A stretch of 64,000 nt of DNA, from NCBI GenBank assembly GCA_030432875.1, contig JAUILP010000005.1, positions 1 through 64,000 of the forward strand, given 5' to 3'. The stretch's first letter is position 1; the number at the start of each line of letters is the position of its first letter. The position numbers were made by a program, and so were the translations under genes. Source of the DNA: Oligoflexia bacterium. GTDB lineage: Bacteria; Bdellovibrionota_B; Oligoflexia; Oligoflexales; JAGOVF01. Positions 5,361 to 59,165 of the stretch are shown piece by piece. The notes beneath the pieces are model-generated. The model was not told where the DNA came from and made no database searches. It was given only the letters and a program-made list of their open reading frames with translations.

Positions 5361-6338
5361 CTATACATCGACAAAATGACAAGCGGCTTCATGTTTGCCA
5401 CTGAAAGGCTCAGGAGCTTTTGGCCGCGTGAAACAGGCATTTTGCCCCTTCGGGCAACGGTCATAAAACATACAGCCTGCATGACGATTATATATACTGG
5501 GAACGATGCCTTTTATGGTGGCGAGTTTGCCACCTTTGGGAGTATCAATTTTAGGTATTGAGGTTAACAGACCCTGAGTATAAGGGTGTTTAGGATGATC
5601 GAAGATATCGTATACGCCGCCCTCTTCTATGATTCTCCCAGCATACATGATGGCAACGCTATCAGCCATTTCTGCAACTAAGCCCAAATCATGAGTAATA
5701 AAAATAACGGCGGTTCCCATTTCTTTTTGCAAATCACCAATGAGTTTTAGAATTTGCGCCTGAATTGTGACGTCTAAGGCCGTCGTCGGCTCATCTGCAA
5801 TTAAAAGATCAGGCTGACAAGCAAGAGCGATAGCTATTAAAACACGCTGACGCATTCCCCCAGAAAGCTGAAAAGGGTACTCATTAATGCGCGAGCCCGG
5901 ATCAGGGATTTTTACTTTGTCGAGCATTTCCACAGCTAAATCTAGTGATTTTCGTCTGCTGAAGCCCTTGTGGATGCGGTAAGCCTCGGCAACCTGATCG
6001 CCAATAGTATAAACAGGATTTAAAGCGGTCATAGGTTCCTGAAAAATCATGGCAATACGGTTGCCGCGTATTTTTCTCAGATCATTTTTGTGGTAATTTA
6101 GAAGATTGTCACCCCTAAAAAAAATCTCTCCTTTCTCAACAGTTGCGGCGTTTTCAGGCAGAAGACCTAAAACAGATAAAGCGGTGATACTTTTGCCACA
6201 CCCTGACTCGCCGACAAGGGCAAGGGTCTTGCCGCTATCAAGCCCTAAATTAATTTCTTCAAGGGCGATGAATTTGCCGCGATTACTTTTAAAAGATAGG
6301 GTGAAGTTGTTTATTTTGAGTAGATGTTTATTGGTCAT
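5361..6338 (-). CDS. oppD: Oligopeptide ABC transporter ATPase OppD
   Basis: First gene of the opp operon and partner ATPase of OppF. Walker A GESGCGKS at residues 43-50, signature LSGGMRQR at 158-165, Walker B LLIADEP at 178-184. The C-terminal cysteine cluster (HAGCMFYDRCPKGQNAC) is present. Upstream, on the minus strand, a good -10-like TATACT lies at 6350-6355 with no strong -35, very close to the ATG, and no clear ribosome site is seen. The message could be almost leaderless, or the true promoter lies further upstream; the sequence does not decide this. Confidence 0.9.
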   Translation of the reverse strand: MTNKHLLKINNFTLSFKSNRGKFIALEEINLGLDSGKTLALVGESGCGKSITALSVLGLLPENAATVEKGEIFFRGDNLLNYHKNDLRKIRGNRIAMIFQEPMTALNPVYTIGDQVAEAYRIHKGFSRRKSLDLAVEMLDKVKIPDPGSRINEYPFQLSGGMRQRVLIAIALACQPDLLIADEPTTALDVTIQAQILKLIGDLQKEMGTAVIFITHDLGLVAEMADSVAIMYAGRIIEEGGVYDIFDHPKHPYTQGLLTSIPKIDTPKGGKLATIKGIVPSIYNRHAGCMFYDRCPKGQNACFTRPKAPEPFSGKHEAACHFVDV

Positions 6339-29152: not shown

Positions 29153-30760
29153 ATGCTTATTGAAACTAAAATTTCACCACATACGACTGAATTCAAGGAA
29201 AATGAGGCCCATCAGCGTAAGCTGTGTGAAGAGCTTCAGGAGCGTTTAGAAAAAAGCGCTCAGGGTGGCGGCGCAAAATATGTGGAGGCTCTTAAGCGCA
29301 GGGGCAAAATATCAGCAAGGCAGCGCATAGCTTTGCTCCAGGACAAAAATTCCCAATTTCTAGAACTTTCAGGCTTAGCAGGCCATGGTTTGTACGATGG
29401 TGATGATGTTCCCGGAGGGGGAATCGTTACTGGGGTTGGCCAAGTTTCAGGTCACCTTTGTATGATCATTGCTAATGACCCAACGGTAAAAGGCGGTAGC
29501 TATTATCCTATTACAGTGAAAAAACACCTCAGGGCGCAACAAATAGCCGAACAAAACCATTTGCCTTGCATCTATTTAGTGGATTCAGGCGGGGCGTTTT
29601 TGCGGGAGCAAGCCGATGTGTTTCCTGACCGCATGAATTTTGGTCGTATTTTTTATAACCAAGCCCGTATGAGTAGCCTAAGCATCCCACAAATATCATC
29701 GGTACACGGATTTTGTACGGCAGGAGGGGCTTATATCCCTGCCATGTCTGACCAATCGATTATTGTCAAAAACACGGGGACGATATTTTTGGCGGGGCCG
29801 CCACTCGTAAAGGCAGCAACAGGAGAAGACGTCAGCGCCGAAGATCTTGGGGGCGGAGAAGTCCATACGGCCATCAGTGGTGTGGCAGATCATTTGGCCG
29901 AGGACGATGAGCATGCCATCGCCCTAATTAGAAAAATCGTGAGCCACCTCAACAAACCGCAGGCACCCCATATCAATCTTAGGGCGCCTATAGATCCCGT
30001 TTATGATGCTCAGGAGCTTCTGGGTATTATTCCCAAAGATAAAAATAAATTTTATGATGTCAGGGAAATTATCGCCCGGATTGTCGATGGATCTGAGCTC
30101 TTTGAGTTTAAGAAAAAGTATGGCACCACGCTGGTGACGGGATTTAGTCACATTCAGGGAATTCCCGTTGGTATCATAGCCAATAACGGCGTGCTTTTTT
30201 CTGAAAGCGCCATAAAGGCAACTCATTTTATCGAAGTCTGTTGTCAGGAAAATATTCCTCTTCTCTTTATGCAAAACGTCACTGGATTTATGGTCGGAAA
30301 GGATTATGAGCACGGTGGCATTGCCAAGCATGGTGCGAAGATGGTTCATGCCGTTGCCAATGCTAAGGTACCCAAATTAACTCTGATTTTTGGAAGCAGT
30401 TATGGTGCGGGCAACTACGGCATGTGCGGTAGAGCCTACGATCCTCATTTCTTGTTTTCTTGGCCGAGTTCTCGCATAGCAGTAATGGGGGGAGATCAGG
30501 CCGCTAACGTACTGGTTACGGTCAAAAAACAGCAGCTTGAGGGGGCTGGTCAGTCTCTGAGCCCTGAGGAAGAGCAAATCATGAAAGCGCCGGTTTTGGC
30601 AAAATATGAAAAAGAAAGTTCTCCGTATTATGCGACGGCCCGTCTTTGGGATGATGGAATTATCGACCCACGGCAAACCCGCAGCGCTCTCGCTCAGGCT
30701 CTTGCCGCAACACTTCATCACCCCTGGGAAGAGACTCGTTTTGGTATTTTTAGGATGTAA
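29153..30760 (+). CDS. liuB: Methylcrotonyl-CoA carboxylase beta subunit (carboxyltransferase)
   Basis: 535 residues, normal for the biotin-dependent carboxyltransferase that transfers CO2 from biotin to 3-methylcrotonyl-CoA in leucine breakdown. Seen are '[22 protein letters not shown]' (acyl-CoA site start), '[18 protein letters not shown]', '[19 protein letters not shown]', and in the second half '[23 protein letters not shown]' and '[18 protein letters not shown]', the oxyanion-forming Gly pairs. The '[11 protein letters not shown]' and '[26 protein letters not shown]' segments are of MCC rather than propionyl-CoA type. A geranyl-CoA carboxylase role is possible given the AtuA neighbour. 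Confidence 0.88.
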
Positions 30761-30817
30761 TTATTTTAAAGAAAAAATAAGGCAACCTTTACTCAATACA
30801 CATAAAGGAAAAACATA

Positions 30818-32641
30818 GTGGGAAAAGAAAAAATAAGAATTGGCAATGCAGGTGGTTACTGGGGCGATGATCCAGAAGCTCTTTATCGGCAAGTCACAAG
30901 TGGCCAGCTTGACTATATAAGTATCGATTTTCTCGCAGAAGTCACCATGTCAATTTTGCAAGGTCAGCGAAAAATGGACCCAAACTTAGGGTATGCCAAA
31001 GATTTTTTAGGCATGCTCAAAGGTGTTTTGCCGCAGCTTTTAGCTAAAAAAATAAAAATTATTACCAATGCGGGGGGAATTAATCCCATAGCCTGCGCAA
31101 GAGCCATTACAAAAATAGCTGAGGAGCTTGAGTTAAAGCCCAAAGTCGCCGTGGTTATGGGGGACGATATCCTTGGTGATCTCGATGACCTAATTGAAAA
31201 AGGCTGCTCATTTGCCAATATGGAAACAGGTGCTGCTTTTAGTCCCGTGAGAAAAAATATAGAGGCAGCCAATGTTTATTTAGGCGCTCTGCCGGTAGTT
31301 CACGCCTTAAAAAGTGATCCTGATATCATCGTGACAGGAAGGGTTACCGATACCGGTATTACCCTAGCCGCGATGATTCATGAATTTTCTTGGTCCTTTA
31401 AAGATTATGATAAACTAGCTGCGGGTATTGTTGCCGGGCATATCCTAGAATGCGGAGCCCAAGCAACAGGTGGCAACTTTAGCGATTGGCATAAAGTCCC
31501 TAGCTTTAAAGATATGGGGTATCCTATCGCCGAAGTTTATTCTAGTGGTACCTTTGTAATCACCAAGCATGAAAAATTAGGGGGACTGGTATCGCCTGAT
31601 ACGATTCGCGAACAACTTTTTTATGAGATGGGTGATCCCAAAGCTTATATTACGCCAGATGTAGTTGCCGATTTTTCTACTATCATCCTTAAAGACTTGG
31701 GAGCTAACCGCGTTGAAGTAAGTGGGATTAAAGGGTATGAATCCACCCCATTTTATAAAGTCTCTATGGCCTATCGTGATGGCTATAAATCGACAGGGAT
31801 GATTGTGATTTCCGGACCAAATGCACGTAAAAAAGCTGAGAAATTTGCTGAAATTTTTTGGCAAAAGTGTGGCACTGATTTTTTGGAAACCTCTACGGAA
31901 TACTTTGGCTGGAACGCCTGCCACCGTACTTTGACGGGCCATGATGATGGCAATGAAATTATCCTGAGACTCGGTGCTAATGACACGAACAAAGACAAAC
32001 TCAGAAAATTTGGTAAAACGATCCCGTCACTCATCCTCAGCGGCCCTCCCGGTGTTACGGTTGCAGGTGGGGTTCCTAAAATTCATGATATTGTGAGCTA
32101 CTGGCCTGCTTTAATGCCAAAACCGTTGGTTACGCCCAAATTTGGGCTTTTTGAAGCCGATACAGTCAATCTCATTGAAGTGACAGAACAGGTCGCAGGT
32201 GACTTTACTGCGCAAACGGACACCTTGACCCAAGTCGCTGAAAAAAGCACGATCGATATTACGCAGGCTGTAAAGGAACCTCAATGTGGTAAAGATGAGG
32301 TTTTGGTCGATCTTTATACTCTATGTTTAGGGCGCAGTGGCGATAAAGGTGATACTTGCAATATTGGCTTGATTGCTCGAAGTAAAGAAATATTTGAATT
32401 TCTTGATACGCGGGTGACGAGCCAGGCGGTAAAAAATTGGTTTCAAGAACTTTGCAGCGCCAAAGTCATTCGTTATAAACTTGATAACCTCCAGGGTTAT
32501 AATTTCTTGCTCGAAGGAGCTCTAGGCGGCGGCGGAACACATTCTTTACGCATTGATCCTCAAGGAAAAACATTTGCGCAGGCTCTTCTAAAACAAAAGA
32601 TTGTGGTTCCCAAAAATTTGCTTGCCACCATTAAGCCTTAG
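30818..32641 (+). CDS. AtuA/DUF1446-family protein of acyclic terpene or leucine use
   Basis: 607 residues; GTG start with AAAGGAAAAAC upstream. Starts 'KIRIGNAGGYWGDDPEALYRQV', the highly typical opening of AtuA/DUF1446 proteins, and continues with 'DYISIDFLAEVTMSILQGQR' and 'IITNAGGINPIACARAI'. The C-terminal 110 residues form a separate short domain ('LCLGRSGDKGDTCNIGLIARSKEIFEFL'), as in many members. The exact reaction is not known; the gene is regularly part of acyclic terpene (atu) and leucine/isovalerate (liu) clusters, as here between the MCC beta and enoyl-CoA hydratase genes. Confidence 0.85.
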   Translation: MGKEKIRIGNAGGYWGDDPEALYRQVTSGQLDYISIDFLAEVTMSILQGQRKMDPNLGYAKDFLGMLKGVLPQLLAKKIKIITNAGGINPIACARAITKIAEELELKPKVAVVMGDDILGDLDDLIEKGCSFANMETGAAFSPVRKNIEAANVYLGALPVVHALKSDPDIIVTGRVTDTGITLAAMIHEFSWSFKDYDKLAAGIVAGHILECGAQATGGNFSDWHKVPSFKDMGYPIAEVYSSGTFVITKHEKLGGLVSPDTIREQLFYEMGDPKAYITPDVVADFSTIILKDLGANRVEVSGIKGYESTPFYKVSMAYRDGYKSTGMIVISGPNARKKAEKFAEIFWQKCGTDFLETSTEYFGWNACHRTLTGHDDGNEIILRLGANDTNKDKLRKFGKTIPSLILSGPPGVTVAGGVPKIHDIVSYWPALMPKPLVTPKFGLFEADTVNLIEVTEQVAGDFTAQTDTLTQVAEKSTIDITQAVKEPQCGKDEVLVDLYTLCLGRSGDKGDTCNIGLIARSKEIFEFLDTRVTSQAVKNWFQELCSAKVIRYKLDNLQGYNFLLEGALGGGGTHSLRIDPQGKTFAQALLKQKIVVPKNLLATIKP

Positions 32642-32652
32642 GAATCATTTCT

Positions 32653-33495
32653 ATGCACAACTATAATGTCACAGAACTCACCAAAATAAATTTAGAGGCC
32701 AAAGAAGAATCCTTACTGGGAATTCTTGCCATTAATCGTCCGAGTATGGCTAATGCCTTTAACAGTGAAGTCGTCGAAGAACTCATTAGCCAGCTCGATA
32801 ACGTCAAAGCAGATGGTCGTTTTCGCGCACTTGTGATAACGGGACGCGGTAAGCATTTTAGTGCGGGAGCCGATCTTGCTTGGATGCAAAAGGCGAGTGA
32901 TCTCACCTATGATGACAACATTGCCGATGCTACCAAACTGAGTGGGCTGATGGAAACCCTGTGTCATTTGCCCATCCCCACTATTGCGGTGGTAAAAGGG
33001 TCTGTTTTTGGTGGCGGGTTAGGGTTGGTCGCTGCGTGTGACTTTGCGCTCTGCGATAGCAAAGCAAAATTTTGTTTAAGTGAGGTGAAGCTAGGGATTT
33101 TGCCTGCGATTATTTTGCCCTATGTGGCGCGAAAAATCACTTTCGGGCAACTCCGCCGCCTGAGTCTTGGTGCTCGCTTATTTACGGCGGAGGAGGCGCG
33201 AGGTTTTGGCTTGGTAGAACGCATGACTAGCGGGGCTGATGAACTTCGCATCGCCTTACTTGATGAACTAAATCTCATTCTAAAGGCTAGCCCTGAAGCT
33301 CAGCGGCGGCTTAAAAGACTGATTGCTTATATTTATGACCACAGTCTAAAACAATCACCAGAAACTGCAAAGGCAATAGCTGAGGCTCGTGTATCTCCGT
33401 CAGGGCAGCTTGGCTTAAGAGCATTTTTAAATAAAACAGATCCCTCCTGGATTTCTCAGGTACGAAGTGAGGATTTAGAAACTTATGAATTTTAA
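32653..33495 (+). CDS. liuC: Enoyl-CoA hydratase/isomerase, probably methylglutaconyl-CoA hydratase
   Basis: 280 residues with the crotonase fold: 'ALVITGRGKHFSAGADLAWMQKA' (oxyanion-hole strand, about 58-80) and 'VKGSVFGGGLGLVAACDFALCDSKAKFCLSEVKLGILPA' (about 113-150), carrying the expected Glu positions. It is expected to hydrate 3-methylglutaconyl-CoA to HMG-CoA, the step after methylcrotonyl-CoA carboxylase. The last codons overlap the start of the MCC alpha gene (11 bases), so translation is coupled. HMG-CoA lyase, which would finish the pathway, is not found nearby. Confidence 0.8.
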   Translation: MHNYNVTELTKINLEAKEESLLGILAINRPSMANAFNSEVVEELISQLDNVKADGRFRALVITGRGKHFSAGADLAWMQKASDLTYDDNIADATKLSGLMETLCHLPIPTIAVVKGSVFGGGLGLVAACDFALCDSKAKFCLSEVKLGILPAIILPYVARKITFGQLRRLSLGARLFTAEEARGFGLVERMTSGADELRIALLDELNLILKASPEAQRRLKRLIAYIYDHSLKQSPETAKAIAEARVSPSGQLGLRAFLNKTDPSWISQVRSEDLETYEF

Positions 33496-35494
33496 ACAGG
33501 TAAAACGACTTTTCATTGCCAATCGCGGGGAAATTCTGCGTCGCATCGCCCTTTCGGCACAAAAATTGGGGATTGAGACGGCAGCCCTTTTTCAGGGATC
33601 AGAAATTCCCAGTTATTTGCAAGGTGGTCTCGTCAATTATTTTCGTTTGAGTTCTAGTGAAGATGTCAAAGATTATCTAAGTATTGAAAAAATGATTGCC
33701 ACGGCAAAAGAATTGGGTTGCGACGCTGTTCACCCCGGTTTTGGCTTTTTGTCAGAAAATGCGGAATTTGCCGCGGCTGTCATAAAAGCAGGTCTCATTT
33801 GGGTGGGACCTCCTCCCGCAGCTATTGTAAAAATGGCGAGCAAAGCCACCGCGAGTGAAATCGCTGATGAACTAAAAATCCCGCGGGTTCAAAGTTTTAA
33901 AAATATCACAGCGGCAAATATCGATGTGATGATGGCAGAAGTTTTGGCTTTCGGCGAAGGCTGTGGTTATCCGCTGCTTATTAAGGCAGCCTATGGCGGC
34001 GGAGGGAAGGGTATGCGCGTCGTCCAAAATCAGGAATCTTTGCGGGAAGCTTTAATCCGAGGAGCATCAGAAGCAAAAAATTCGTTTGGTAATGATCTCC
34101 TGGTCGTCGAAAAGTACTTACCTTCTACAAGACATATTGAAGTACAAATTCTTGCCGATTCTCAGGGGCAAGTCGCGGTTATTGGCGACCGGGATTGCTC
34201 TATTCAGCGCCGCCATCAAAAAATCATTGAAGAGGCTCCGGCGCCAGGCTTAAAAATTGAGACGCGCAAAGCCTTACACCATGCCGCAAAGCGCTTAGCC
34301 GAGTCTGTGGGTTATCAGTCTGCGGGCACGGTTGAATTTATGCTTGCGGAAAATAATGGAGAACAAAAATTTTATTTTTTAGAAATGAACACCCGCTTAC
34401 AGGTTGAACATCCGGTAAGCGAGGAGGTTTTTGGTATAGACCTGGTAGCTGCGCAGCTTAATATTGCCATGGGGCAACCGTTACCTGACTATCAGCGCAG
34501 TCTGATGCCGCGGGGGCATAGCATTGAAGTGCGTCTCTATGCAGAAGATCCCGAAAATAATTTTTTTCCCAGTCCTGGTTTGGTTTACTATTTTGATCCC
34601 ATGCAAGGTCCTGGCGTTCGGTGGGAATTAGGGATAAGTTCTGGTGAGGAGATCACAGGGAGTTTTGACCCGATGTTTGCCAAACTCGTGGTTTGGGATG
34701 AAGACCGAAATTTGGCGATTGATCGCCTTTGTCAAGCCCTAAAACAGACCATATTCTTTGGGCCGAAAAACAATCTAAGCTTTCTTGAGCAGGTCCTTCG
34801 TGATTCTGATTTTAAGGCACTCAAATTTAATACGCATTTTTTGCAAGATAAGATTGCGGTTTACTGCGAAAACATCACCACTCTTCGCCACTCTCTTGAA
34901 GATGATATAGCAGTTATTTTAGCTCATCCGCCGCAAAAAAGTTCTGGAGAGAAAGTCCAGCTAGGCGCGGGAGAACTCAGCCAGTACATTTATGGGAACG
35001 GGGATCCTTTGGGAGGGATTAATAAGTCTGCAGCGGGAGATAATAGGGCAGCACAGACCTTTCATTATAACTTGAGGAACCAAATCTATTTTTCACAGAG
35101 TAAGGGCTCGGTAACTAAGGGCTTTAGAAAATTAGATCAGGATAAATTTGCGCCTTTTTGCTATGCTGAATATAATAACGCTCAGGAATTTAAAAAATTT
35201 ATCCATTTTGAAGGACAAGTTTTTACTGTTGTTGAGGCTAAGGAGTTAGGGCTAACGGACTCGGGAAGTTCAGAGCTAAGGTCTCATGATATAGAGTCAC
35301 CTGTGCCAGGAAAAATCATTATGGTGGCCTGTCATGAGGGAAAAGAAATCGCAAAAGGTGAGCGGTTATTTGTTTTAGAGTCCATGAAAATGGAATATGA
35401 AATAAGCGCTTCTATAACGGGTACTCTGACCAAAATCCTTGTTAAAGAAGGGGAAAGTGTTGTCGCTAACCAAACATTGGCCCATTGGGATTAG
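33485..35494 (+). CDS. liuD: Methylcrotonyl-CoA carboxylase alpha subunit (biotin carboxylase + BCCP)
   Basis: 669 residues, the normal size for a fused biotin carboxylase and biotin carrier. The N-terminal biotin-carboxylase starts 'RLFIANRGEILRRIALSAQ', the ATP-grasp loop is 'KAAYGGGGKGMRVV' (about 169-182), and 'YFLEMNTRLQVEHPVSEEVFG' is the bicarbonate/biotin site (about 298-318). The C-terminal carrier has the biotinylation motif ESMKMEYE with Lys at about 635. It needs biotin and pairs with the MCC beta gene three genes upstream. Last gene of the operon; the next gene starts 71 bases on. Confidence 0.9.
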   Translation: MNFKQVKRLFIANRGEILRRIALSAQKLGIETAALFQGSEIPSYLQGGLVNYFRLSSSEDVKDYLSIEKMIATAKELGCDAVHPGFGFLSENAEFAAAVIKAGLIWVGPPPAAIVKMASKATASEIADELKIPRVQSFKNITAANIDVMMAEVLAFGEGCGYPLLIKAAYGGGGKGMRVVQNQESLREALIRGASEAKNSFGNDLLVVEKYLPSTRHIEVQILADSQGQVAVIGDRDCSIQRRHQKIIEEAPAPGLKIETRKALHHAAKRLAESVGYQSAGTVEFMLAENNGEQKFYFLEMNTRLQVEHPVSEEVFGIDLVAAQLNIAMGQPLPDYQRSLMPRGHSIEVRLYAEDPENNFFPSPGLVYYFDPMQGPGVRWELGISSGEEITGSFDPMFAKLVVWDEDRNLAIDRLCQALKQTIFFGPKNNLSFLEQVLRDSDFKALKFNTHFLQDKIAVYCENITTLRHSLEDDIAVILAHPPQKSSGEKVQLGAGELSQYIYGNGDPLGGINKSAAGDNRAAQTFHYNLRNQIYFSQSKGSVTKGFRKLDQDKFAPFCYAEYNNAQEFKKFIHFEGQVFTVVEAKELGLTDSGSSELRSHDIESPVPGKIIMVACHEGKEIAKGERLFVLESMKMEYEISASITGTLTKILVKEGESVVANQTLAHWD

Positions 35495-36522: not shown

Positions 36523-36862
36523 CGTGAACTCATTTGCGCCTAACCTCAGTAGTGTACTGAGAGAAGGGTAATTAGTCACAAAGAGTATACTTAGTCTACC
36601 TACTGGGGCGAACTTACCCACAGAGGTCTGGGGATAAACGCTAACTTAATCCTCTGTAGATGCTGCCTGACACCATAAGAACCGTTTTGCCTTATTTTTA
36701 GGCAAAGCTTCCATTTTAAAAAAAATTTAACCCAGATAAGTACAAGATTATGGGGGCCATATCTCAGCATTTAAAATTAGACAAATTTTTGACCACTCTA
36801 CGCCCTTAAATTTACAGGTTATCAAGTCTATTAAGGAGCTATTTTTAGCCCAATTTCCTTAT
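36523..36862. other. Intergenic region with coding-like extension of the next gene
   Basis: About 240 bases are non-coding. From 36761 onward the frame of the following gene stays open and reads like protein (AFKIRQIFDHSTPLNLQVIKSIKELFLAQFPY), typical of a GNAT N-terminus, but contains no ATG, GTG or TTG in frame. An ATG at 36750 directly before a run of five G's is out of frame by one base. See findings. Confidence 0.45.
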
Positions 36863-38497
36863 ATGACATCAAGCTTTTTTGATGAAGTCATTGAAAAAGT
36901 ATCCTTCAATACCAGCGTTACCCATAAGTACTATCTCTTTGTCGCAGAAAAACGCGGTCATGTTCAGGGCGCGGCTATTGTATCCCAGTTTTTAAAGGAA
37001 AATTTTTTCTTTATTGATTACATTGCTTCAAACAAAGGAAATCCTAGTAGAGGAATTGGTGCTGCCCTGTATGCCAGGATTAAAGAACAGTCACTCCTTA
37101 ACAAGTGCCTTGGGATTTTTTTGGAATGTGAATCCATAGAGAGAAGGTTTTGTGCCAGCGATGATGAGCAAAAACAAAATAAAATTCGGCTAAATTTTTA
37201 TCACCGATTTGGCGCTGTGCAATTAAAACATACCTTGTACGAAAAAGAGCGAGCCGATAAATCATCTTTTCATTTACTCTATGATAAAAACATTGGGAAA
37301 AAATTAGATAATGAGGCAATTGCAACCATAGTTACGGCAATTTTAAAAAGTCATACTGAAAAAAAATGTACAAAAATTTATATTGAGGAAGTTGTCGCCT
37401 CCCTCTCAAAAGGTAGCTTTGAGGAGTTAGTTCCGTCACAAGCCAGAAATCAGCCAAATTTACTTTTTCATCCCAGCAGTGTACCTGATGATCAAAAAAT
37501 TCCCCTAACCTTTAACCCTCAGCATATAATTCATCACGTTAAGGAAAAGGGCTATGTTGAATCGCCTATTAGAATCGATTCCATTCTTGGAGAGCTAAAA
37601 AAAGTTGGTTTTTTTGATTTTATTGAGTCGAAAAAATATCCTGATTCGCTCATAACAGAAGTTCATGATACTGAGTATATTAAGTTTTTAAAAAAAATAT
37701 GTGAATTCGCAGGAAAAAAAACCATTTATCCTGATGTGTTCCCCATTCGCAATCGAGCGCGACTGCCTAATAGTATTGAAGCTCAGGTTGGGTATTACTG
37801 CATAGACACTTTTTCTCCCTTAAATCATAATGCTTACTTGGCTTCCAGGGCAGCAGTAGATTGCGCTTTGACGGCAGCGTCACGACTTCTTGATGGTGAA
37901 AACATCTCTTACGCTCTTGTGCGACCACCAGGTCATCACGCCGAAAAAAAATTTTTTGGTGGGTTTTGTTATCTCAATTCTACTGCTATTGCGGCAAATT
38001 ATTTAAGTAAAAATGGGCGCGTTGCTATTCTTGATATTGATTTTCATCATGGTAATGGCCAGCAAAATATTTTTTATGATAGAGATGATGTTCTAACCAT
38101 TTCCATTCATGGGCACCCTGAGCATGCTTACCCTCATTTTACTGGATTTGAGGATGAAAAAGGCATTAATCGCGGACTTGGTTTTAATATTAATTATCCC
38201 CTAGGCATCACTATTGACGGACCAACATATTTAAATACCCTTAAGATAGCCTTAGAAGATATTAAAAAATTCGATCCCGTTTTTTGCATAATAGCCCTAG
38301 GTTTAGATACCGCAAAAGGCGACCCGACAGGCTCTTGGAAATTGTTATCAAAGGATTTTGAAGAAAATGGAAAACTGATTGGTGCTCTTAAGTTGCCCAC
38401 CTTATTAGTGCAAGAAGGGGGATATAAAACTCAGGTGTTGGGCGTTAATGCTAAACATTTTTTTCAGGGACTCATGAAAGGCTATTACAAATCTTAA
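36863..38497 (+). CDS. GNAT acetyltransferase fused to acetylpolyamine amidohydrolase/HDAC-family deacetylase
   Basis: 544 residues in two domains. Residues 1-130 are GNAT-like: 'YLFVAEKRGHVQGAAIVSQF', 'FFIDYIASNKGNPSRGIGAALYARIKE' (RGIGAA pyrophosphate loop at about 63-68) and 'LNFYHRFGAVQL'. Residues 220-544 are an arginase/deacetylase-fold enzyme: 'RPPGHHAEK' (354-362, active-site His pair), 'DIDFHHGNG' (391-399, zinc Asp/His), 'GLDTAKGDPTGS' (second Asp) and 'QEGGY' (catalytic-Tyr equivalent). That set is intact and most like acetylpolyamine amidohydrolase. The annotated ATG cuts into the GNAT fold, so the true start is uncertain. One protein holding both activities is unusual. Confidence 0.82.
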   Translation: MTSSFFDEVIEKVSFNTSVTHKYYLFVAEKRGHVQGAAIVSQFLKENFFFIDYIASNKGNPSRGIGAALYARIKEQSLLNKCLGIFLECESIERRFCASDDEQKQNKIRLNFYHRFGAVQLKHTLYEKERADKSSFHLLYDKNIGKKLDNEAIATIVTAILKSHTEKKCTKIYIEEVVASLSKGSFEELVPSQARNQPNLLFHPSSVPDDQKIPLTFNPQHIIHHVKEKGYVESPIRIDSILGELKKVGFFDFIESKKYPDSLITEVHDTEYIKFLKKICEFAGKKTIYPDVFPIRNRARLPNSIEAQVGYYCIDTFSPLNHNAYLASRAAVDCALTAASRLLDGENISYALVRPPGHHAEKKFFGGFCYLNSTAIAANYLSKNGRVAILDIDFHHGNGQQNIFYDRDDVLTISIHGHPEHAYPHFTGFEDEKGINRGLGFNINYPLGITIDGPTYLNTLKIALEDIKKFDPVFCIIALGLDTAKGDPTGSWKLLSKDFEENGKLIGALKLPTLLVQEGGYKTQVLGVNAKHFFQGLMKGYYKS

Positions 38498-57368: not shown

Positions 57369-59165
57369 ATGGCCCGTGCTCTTGAACGCGTTCCGGCGCA
57401 TCTGCAAAAATATATCACAACGCAAAATTATGACCAATACACCTCTCGTGATCAAGCTGCCTGGCGCTATATCATGCGGCAGTCCTGCGATTTTTTTAAG
57501 GATAAGGCTGTACCTAATTACTTGGCCGGACTAAAGAGAACCGGCATTTCTCTCACACGAATTCCAAATATTGAAAATATGGACAAAGCTCTCAACGCCA
57601 TGGGGTGGGGTGCTGTCGTCGTGCGCGGATTCATCCCGCCAAGTGCCTTTATGGAACTCCAGGCACTGCGCCTCCTGCCCATTGCCACGGATATGCGAAC
57701 GGTAGAACACCTCGGTTATACACCAGCTCCTGACATTGTGCATGAAGCTGCTGGCCATGCTCCCATCCTAGCCGATGAGCAGTATAGCGACTATCTGACA
57801 AAATATGCCAAACTAGCACATCGGGCGATTTATGCTAAACACGATGTTGATATTTATGAAGCGATCAGAAAGCTTTCGGATCTCAAGGAAAATCCAGATG
57901 CGACAGCGAAGGAAATTGTTGCTGCTGAGGCAGAGCTTTCTAAAGCGACAGCTGCCATTTCTTATGTTTCGGAAGCTGCAAAAATTGCCCGTATGTATTG
58001 GTGGACCGTAGAATATGGCCTTATGGGAAGCCTGACAGATCCTAAAATATACGGGGCGGGACTACTTTCGAGTGTAGCAGAAAGCCAGTATTGTTTGACC
58101 GATGCGGTTAAAAAAATTCCACTTTCTATCGATGTTATTAATTATAGTTATGACATAACCGAGCCTCAACCTCAGCTCTTTGTCGCCCGAGACTTTAATC
58201 ATCTGAGTGAGGTTCTCGGAGAATTAGAACAGTGCCTTAGCTATGCCATTGGCGGTACTTATGCCCTAGACCAGGTGATCAAGGCTGGAACTGTTACGAC
58301 AGTGAAATTTGAAAATGGTTTAAGTATCAGTGGCAATTTAAGCGTGTGTTTGCTGGATTCTGAGAAAAACCCTGAATTCGTCCGCTATACAGGCCCTGTG
58401 CAACTGGGCTGCCAAGACAAACTTTTACCTGGCCAAGGTATTACTCGACATAATGCCGGATTTTCGTCGCCGCTGGGTCGTCTAAAATCCCTTTCAGATC
58501 GGCCCTTTTCTCAAGTGGATGATAAGTCACTCAGAGAGCTTAATATTATTGAAGGAAACCCAATTGAAATGGATTATGTTTCTGGGTTTAAAGTTAAAGG
58601 GCATCTCGCTAAAATAGAGCGAGGCGTGGGCGGTGCGCTCCTCTACATGACTTTGCACAATGCGTCGGTCACGCGTGGAGCTGAGGTTTTTTACGAGCCA
58701 GAGTGGGGAGATTTTGATCTTGCCATAGGGGAACAGGTGGTTTCAGCATTCGGCGGTCCCGTCGATCAGGAAGATTTCTCCGAAGAAGTCAACTTTGGTC
58801 AGGCTTCTACTCAACCGGGGCGAAGCACGCCCTACTCCCTGCGCGATAAGAAAATTATCTCTTATTATGAGCAGATGCGTGACTGGCGTGAGCAGAAAGA
58901 ATTGCCGTCGATTCCTGAGCTTCATAAATTTGTTGAGGAGATACAAAAAACTAAGGCGGATGAATGGCTTCTTTTCTTAGAAATAATCGAACTGTTGGCG
59001 CTGCGTACCGATATAGAGTCTCATCAGTTAGGCGAATCCATTAAAAACCATCTGATGAAATTAGCTCGCACCGATAAAGAAGTCGGAAATCTCATAGCAA
59101 GAGGCATAGAACTCAGCGTTAAAGCTGACCAAGTTTTTACTTCTCAGGGCAATTCTTTTTATTAA
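57369..59165 (+). CDS. Aromatic amino acid hydroxylase (phenylalanine 4-hydroxylase-like), long form
   Basis: 598 residues; GGAGG lies before the ATG. Pterin- and iron-dependent hydroxylation of an aromatic amino acid, most likely Phe to Tyr. Iron ligands are His125 and His130 ('VHEAAGHAPIL') and Glu215 ('WWTVEYGLMG'). The catalytic domain fills the first ~300 residues; the remaining ~290 form an extra domain with no match I recognise ('GPVQLGCQDKLLPGQGI', 'HNASVTRGAEVFYEPEWGDFD'). Simple bacterial enzymes are about 260-300 residues, but similar long forms are known in several phyla. No pterin recycling gene is adjacent. Confidence 0.85.
   Translation: MARALERVPAHLQKYITTQNYDQYTSRDQAAWRYIMRQSCDFFKDKAVPNYLAGLKRTGISLTRIPNIENMDKALNAMGWGAVVVRGFIPPSAFMELQALRLLPIATDMRTVEHLGYTPAPDIVHEAAGHAPILADEQYSDYLTKYAKLAHRAIYAKHDVDIYEAIRKLSDLKENPDATAKEIVAAEAELSKATAAISYVSEAAKIARMYWWTVEYGLMGSLTDPKIYGAGLLSSVAESQYCLTDAVKKIPLSIDVINYSYDITEPQPQLFVARDFNHLSEVLGELEQCLSYAIGGTYALDQVIKAGTVTTVKFENGLSISGNLSVCLLDSEKNPEFVRYTGPVQLGCQDKLLPGQGITRHNAGFSSPLGRLKSLSDRPFSQVDDKSLRELNIIEGNPIEMDYVSGFKVKGHLAKIERGVGGALLYMTLHNASVTRGAEVFYEPEWGDFDLAIGEQVVSAFGGPVDQEDFSEEVNFGQASTQPGRSTPYSLRDKKIISYYEQMRDWREQKELPSIPELHKFVEEIQKTKADEWLLFLEIIELLALRTDIESHQLGESIKNHLMKLARTDKEVGNLIARGIELSVKADQVFTSQGNSFY

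Follow-up and report, generated by a model that had tools for sequence, protein, structure and literature searches.

A GCN5-like acetyltransferase (GNAT) domain and an acetylpolyamine amidohydrolase (APAH)/HDAC-type deacetylase domain are joined in one polypeptide encoded in the window, the 64,000-nucleotide stretch of Oligoflexia bacterium DNA analyzed here. This GNAT-HDAC fusion is real rather than an assembly artefact, because the same join is found in 45 further full-length homologues, 39-47% identical, from Desulfobacterota, Chloroflexota, Planctomycetota, Bacteroidota, and Proteobacteria. Within this family, the window copy is an outlier. The explanation that we prefer, with moderate confidence, is that the two-domain enzyme of the family would set or recycle an acetyl group on a small amine of a partner pathway, the GNAT domain of the window copy having changed or being in the course of drifting.

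A frame check recovered the originally predicted single open reading frame at 36863-38497 (plus strand; 544 aa); the frame holds, but its start does not, the coding region reaching to approximately 36767. The open frame spans 36740-38494 (585 codons), with the stop codon at 38495-38497, and tblastn matches of the relatives extend to residues 7-11 of the extended window frame (Table 1). ATG 36863 is an internal methionine: a start there would remove β1 and α1 of the GNAT domain, and no Shine-Dalgarno sequence was found near it. At position 36767, where 46 of 47 relatives have ATG, GTG, or TTG (ATA in the remaining one), the window has GCA, and it contains no in-frame ATG, GTG, or TTG upstream of 36863. 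An out-of-frame ATG near 36753 is followed by GGGGG, and one extra base would bring it in frame; the start of the window copy could thus reflect a near-cognate start codon, a real mutation, or a one-base assembly error at this run.

Table 1. Features of the GNAT-HDAC fusion gene in the window
Feature	Position	Strand	Basis
Full GNAT-linker-HDAC homology region, 576 aa	36767..38494	+	tblastn of relatives, alignments, start position of relatives
Coding stretch 5' of the predicted ATG, AFKIRQIFDHSTPLNLQVIKSIKELFLAQFPY, GNAT β1-α1	36767..36862	+	aligns to M-FRIRRIYDD...QFP of 45 relatives
GNAT domain, residues 1-176	36767..37294	+	AF2 models; Foldseek to GCN5/PCAF; Pfam in relatives
Acetyl-CoA loop G96-I-G-A-A-L-Y102	37052..37072	+	G96 and G98 invariant, 46 sequences
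GNAT Glu120, end of β5	37124..37126	+	invariant, 46 sequences
GNAT Tyr145 (FY motif, usual general-acid position)	37199..37201	+	invariant, 46 sequences
Family-specific linker, residues 177-243	37295..37495	+	alignment; AF2 helices 182-211, disordered 220-237
HDAC/acetylpolyamine amidohydrolase-like domain, residues 244-576	37496..38494	+	Pfam PF00850; PDB matches; Foldseek to APAH structures
Catalytic His390-His391 (RPPGHHA)	37934..37939	+	invariant, 46/46
Zinc ligands Asp425, His427 (DFH)	38039..38047	+	invariant, 46/46
Zinc ligand Asp514	38306..38308	+	invariant, 46/46
Catalytic Tyr553 (EGGY)	38423..38425	+	invariant, 46/46

Taken alone, the window ORF matched the Pfam GNAT model with an E value of 0.011, below the cut-off (0.0013 with the upstream extension), so that recognition of the domain depended on the relatives and on a structure model. 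Several fusion homologues, namely L028, L030 (1.1e-5), L034, L035, and L036 (3.3e-9), exceed the Pfam GNAT gathering cut-off. An AF2 model covering residues 1-208 (pLDDT 88) has the GNAT topology, and a Foldseek search with this N-terminal model returned GCN5/PCAF as the best match (E=2e-9). The predicted GNAT domain is therefore present but longer than the approximately 130 residues assigned to it, comprising about 176 residues followed by a linker of about 67. In the family alignment, G96, G98, E120, R141, F144, and Y145 are identical in all 46 sequences, the acidic β4 residue is invariant or nearly so in the same set, and the Q/R position of the motif A loop (Q/R-x-x-G-x-G/A) is usually taken by Thr in the family, the window copy having Pro there. 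The family shares the fold, the G-x-G of the acetyl-CoA loop, and the motif-B tyrosine with GCN5-related N-acetyltransferases (GCN5/PCAF; Pfam PF00583), but differs from GCN5/PCAF in its helical extension, the Thr or Pro in motif A, and the fused deacetylase.

The C-terminal part proved to be the complete deacetylase domain that had been predicted, with a match to Pfam Hist_deacetyl (PF00850) over the window ORF (E=5.9e-70) and every zinc and catalytic residue in place. Its best solved relatives by sequence are the acetylpolyamine amidohydrolases 6phr, 9gkz, and 3q9b, and Foldseek likewise retrieved APAHs. Members of this HDAC-fold branch are annotated in databases only as 'histone deacetylase family protein'. 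An AF2 model of the full chain, built with 46 sequences, reached a pLDDT of 82 and a pTM of 0.60, at which the mutual placement of the two domains is unreliable.

A scan of GTDB contigs based on aligned HDAC parts detected at least 10 full-length fusions. With an N-terminal profile, 36 full-length fusion loci and one contig-end fragment were found in 395 genomes of Desulfobacterota, where the strong full-length matches all occupy reading frames of 577 aa or more, i.e., are fused; the same profile yielded 2 fusions in 350 genomes of Chloroflexota and about 9 in 343 genomes of Planctomycetota. The window copy is the sole fusion among 58 genomes of its phylum, the other 57 containing none, and viral contigs contained no fusion, the phage records encoding stand-alone HDACs or fragments only. 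When compared with 80 stand-alone APAHs, the HDAC domains of the fusions are set apart by a branch with SH-aLRT support of 99. This single clade points to an evolutionary scenario, read from the sequences, in which the fusion arose once and then spread widely and patchily among phyla. Plasmid-borne candidates from Azospirillum, Shinella, and others were rejected, the BLAST alignments having extended spuriously into separate upstream genes. In Chloroflexota, a weak stand-alone GNAT match (L195) shares the helical C-terminal extension seen in the fusion, and in one metagenome-assembled genome (L037, around 6260-6293) a frameshift within the HDAC domain splits the fusion gene.

The divergence of the window copy is unevenly distributed along the chain. 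Its median identity to the family is 30% in the GNAT domain, 22% in the linker, and 56% in the HDAC domain, vs. family medians of 56%, 45%, and 63%, respectively. Of the conserved residues, it keeps 126/135 in the HDAC domain, 29/43 in the GNAT domain, and 6/13 in the linker, the retention in the latter two regions being the lowest among all members; the family linker motif DDPVRLR is absent from the window, which has KGSFEEL there. Judging from this pattern, the HDAC domain of the window copy is under constraint and its deacetylase is probably active, and its GNAT domain has changed specificity or is drifting. It is conceivable, albeit doubtful, that the window gene alone is a relic that has lost its start codon and whose GNAT domain is decaying, with expression either beginning at ATG 36863 or absent altogether. 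The GCA at the start position, with no upstream in-frame start codon, would fit such decay, as would the loss of 14/43 conserved GNAT and 7/13 linker residues and the missing ATP-grasp partners (see below), but the 585 codons are free of stops, most conserved HDAC residues and the GNAT core residues are kept, and the start could be explained by a near-cognate codon or by a single-base error at the GGGGG run.

Local HMM scans of the loci of the relatives identified a recurrent gene set in which the fusion is accompanied by a KamA radical SAM aminomutase, two D-Ala-D-Ala ligase (Ddl)-like ATP-grasp proteins, and a small GNAT. Both ATP-grasp genes adjoin the fusion in 20/46 loci and KamA does so in 18/46. 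Among 22 other fusion genomes checked, all without an adjoining ligase pair, 21 encode the first ATP-grasp (ligase A) elsewhere, usually in a KamA-ATP-grasp-GNAT cluster, compared with 8/20 fusion-less controls from the same phylum (Fisher p=1.3e-4, kinship ignored). The tie between fusion and ligases is strong but not obligate, given that three fusion genomes (those of the window, G065, and G139) lack the pair and that the ligase occurs in those eight controls. No neighbors are shared by the solo fusion loci beyond local synteny among close relatives. In one locus (L191), the small GNAT is joined to an ATP-grasp protein. The cluster KamA sequences pass the KamA subfamily model TIGR00238, score 465.8 and 481.8 bits against the curated NCBIfam lysine 2,3-aminomutase model, below its cut-off of 525.4, and keep the positions of Asp293 and Asp330 of lysine 2,3-aminomutase 2a5h, which we take to be the lysine side-chain contacts. 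The product of the cluster, we infer, would be a β-lysine-type amide, and the fusion occurs nearly always in bacteria with genes for a small molecule that is probably β-lysine-based. The N-epsilon-acetyl-β-lysine pathway of AblA/AblB, cited in PMC3543383 and PMC9337991, similarly combines a KamA-type aminomutase with a GNAT; in the cluster of the relatives, these are joined by a pair of ATP-grasp ligases and by the GNAT-HDAC fusion.

Variation in the organization of these loci was observed as well. In L032, L163, L164, L166, and L168, the small GNAT, elsewhere a separate gene, is joined to the C terminus of the fusion, producing GNAT-HDAC-GNAT proteins, and in L187 a KamA-type gene lies on either side of the fusion. 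Genomes without the fusion also carry KamA/ATP-grasp/GNAT clusters (L201-L205, with L203 consisting of the ATP-grasp pair alone). No riboswitches were detected near the fusion or the cluster; the only hits were, in L165, a group II intron and, in the window, an sR5 match below threshold.

We propose that the family members are obligate two-domain enzymes in which the conserved linker connects a GCN5-like acetyltransferase with an APAH/HDAC-fold deacetylase. The partner pathway would comprise the KamA-type aminomutase, predicted to convert lysine into β-lysine, two ATP-grasp amide ligases, and the second GNAT, and both domains of the fusion would act on the same small metabolite of this pathway, a diamine or an amino acid. 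Their likeliest role would lie in setting or recycling the N-acetylation of the product or a precursor, for instance, by protection during synthesis and subsequent deprotection, or by on/off switching of an acetylated solute. This proposal builds on the observed fusion, residue conservation, single clade, and gene association; the substrate, both activities, and the direction of control are what we infer. Both the GNAT and the HDAC activity are probably real in the family, because the HDAC domains form one clade and the catalytic residues of both domains are invariant. The original prediction of opposed activities in one chain is upheld, at the level of sequence, for the family, the GNAT core and HDAC residues being identical in 46/46 members. 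The conserved association with KamA, ATP-grasp, and GNAT genes suggests a small-molecule acetyl cycle rather than a protein-lysine switch and hints at a metabolite, possibly a compatible solute, and at a substrate for this branch of HDAC-fold enzymes. More speculatively, the genes might constitute an undescribed, widespread system in which KamA and the two ATP-grasp ligases make a β-lysine amide and a single GNAT-HDAC protein writes and erases its N-acetyl group, with the linker coupling the two sites. Acetyltransferases and classical deacetylases are usually separate, opposing proteins; a conserved fusion of apparently single origin, present in several phyla, would provide a test of how a futile cycle is avoided. 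In the open-access literature searched, we found no description of the GNAT-HDAC fusion or of the KamA/ATP-grasp/GNAT cluster, although ATP-grasp amidoligase neighborhoods were reportedly covered by Iyer et al. in 2009, possibly a prior description. The sections of a bacterial deacylase survey considered here (PMC11532494) mention GNAT only in general terms.

An alternative that we regard as unlikely is a single-chain protein-lysine acetylation switch, a fused counterpart of AcuA/AcuC, in which a target protein would be acetylated by the GNAT domain and deacetylated again by the HDAC domain. Consistent with such a switch, the GNAT model is nearest to GCN5/PCAF, the window gene lies downstream of an acyl-CoA catabolism operon (29153-35494), and PsApaH, an enzyme of the APAH clade, deacetylates a lysine peptide too (PMC11532494). 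However, the conserved neighbors of the relatives are small-molecule enzymes, with no target protein among them, the acyl-CoA neighbors are not conserved, and the HDAC domain has its closest relatives among the polyamine deacetylases rather than in AcuC, which the same survey assigns to cluster 2 of the deacylases. In Bacillus subtilis, AcuA and AcuC, a GNAT and a classical deacetylase, exert opposed activities as predicted for the family, but they are encoded by separate genes and act on AcsA, whereas the family proteins are fused and their HDAC domain is APAH-like.

Less probable still is an acetylpolyamine cycle, i.e., acetylation and deacetylation of putrescine or spermidine-like amines: although APAHs are the best PDB matches, no polyamine gene recurs among the neighbors, and most of the polyamine determinants described for APAHs are replaced. 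The position of Glu117 of MrAPAH, which forms a salt bridge with the polyamine (PMC5454378), is occupied by Phe349 in 46/46 family sequences; the PIS motif, described as the gatekeeper of APAHs in PMC11532494, is replaced by P-T-G in the window, with T521 present in 44/45 relatives; and the N-terminal L1 β-hairpin, a dimer element in cluster 4 APAHs, is 7 residues shorter in the window than in the stand-alone enzymes. Glu117 is no strict criterion for APAHs, given that others, such as 9gkz, also lack it. Overall, the family shares the arginase-deacetylase fold and the zinc and catalytic residues with the cluster 4 APAHs (M. ramosa 3q9b, Marinobacter 6phr, and PsApaH 9gkz), but has not retained E117, the PIS motif, or the full-length L1 hairpin, possesses the N-terminal GNAT domain and linker, and forms a separate clade. 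Among the substrates originally envisaged, polyamines are thus weakened by the replaced determinants, and small amines are favored by the KamA/ATP-grasp/GNAT neighborhood. The original suggestion that the GNAT domain serves the deacetylase as an acyl-CoA sensor, here taken as non-catalytic, is similarly improbable for the family, in which the loop glycines, Glu120, Tyr145, and the acidic β4 residue vary hardly or not at all, despite the altered motif A position. Such a role may apply to the window copy, with its strong, rapid divergence of the GNAT domain and linker.

Several other genes of the window and its genome were also noted. The upstream operon (plus strand) consists of four genes, liu/atu-like by translation, for a carboxyltransferase, an AtuA/DUF1446-like protein of 607 aa, an enoyl-CoA hydratase, and a biotin carboxylase; it was rejected as the functional context of the window gene, not being conserved beside the relatives. 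The genome contains no ATP-grasp ligase pair. Just beyond the window end (G000 C86:64073-65140; L108, L120) lies a gene for a KamA radical SAM protein, which is 40% identical to the cluster KamA, lacks Asp293, and belongs to another subgroup. A second APAH-like deacetylase, stand-alone and outside the fusion clade, is encoded at G000 C180:2336-3265 (L002, L121). Finally, a 598-aa protein encoded at 57369-59165 (plus strand) of the window resembles an aromatic amino acid hydroxylase that is considerably extended at its C terminus.
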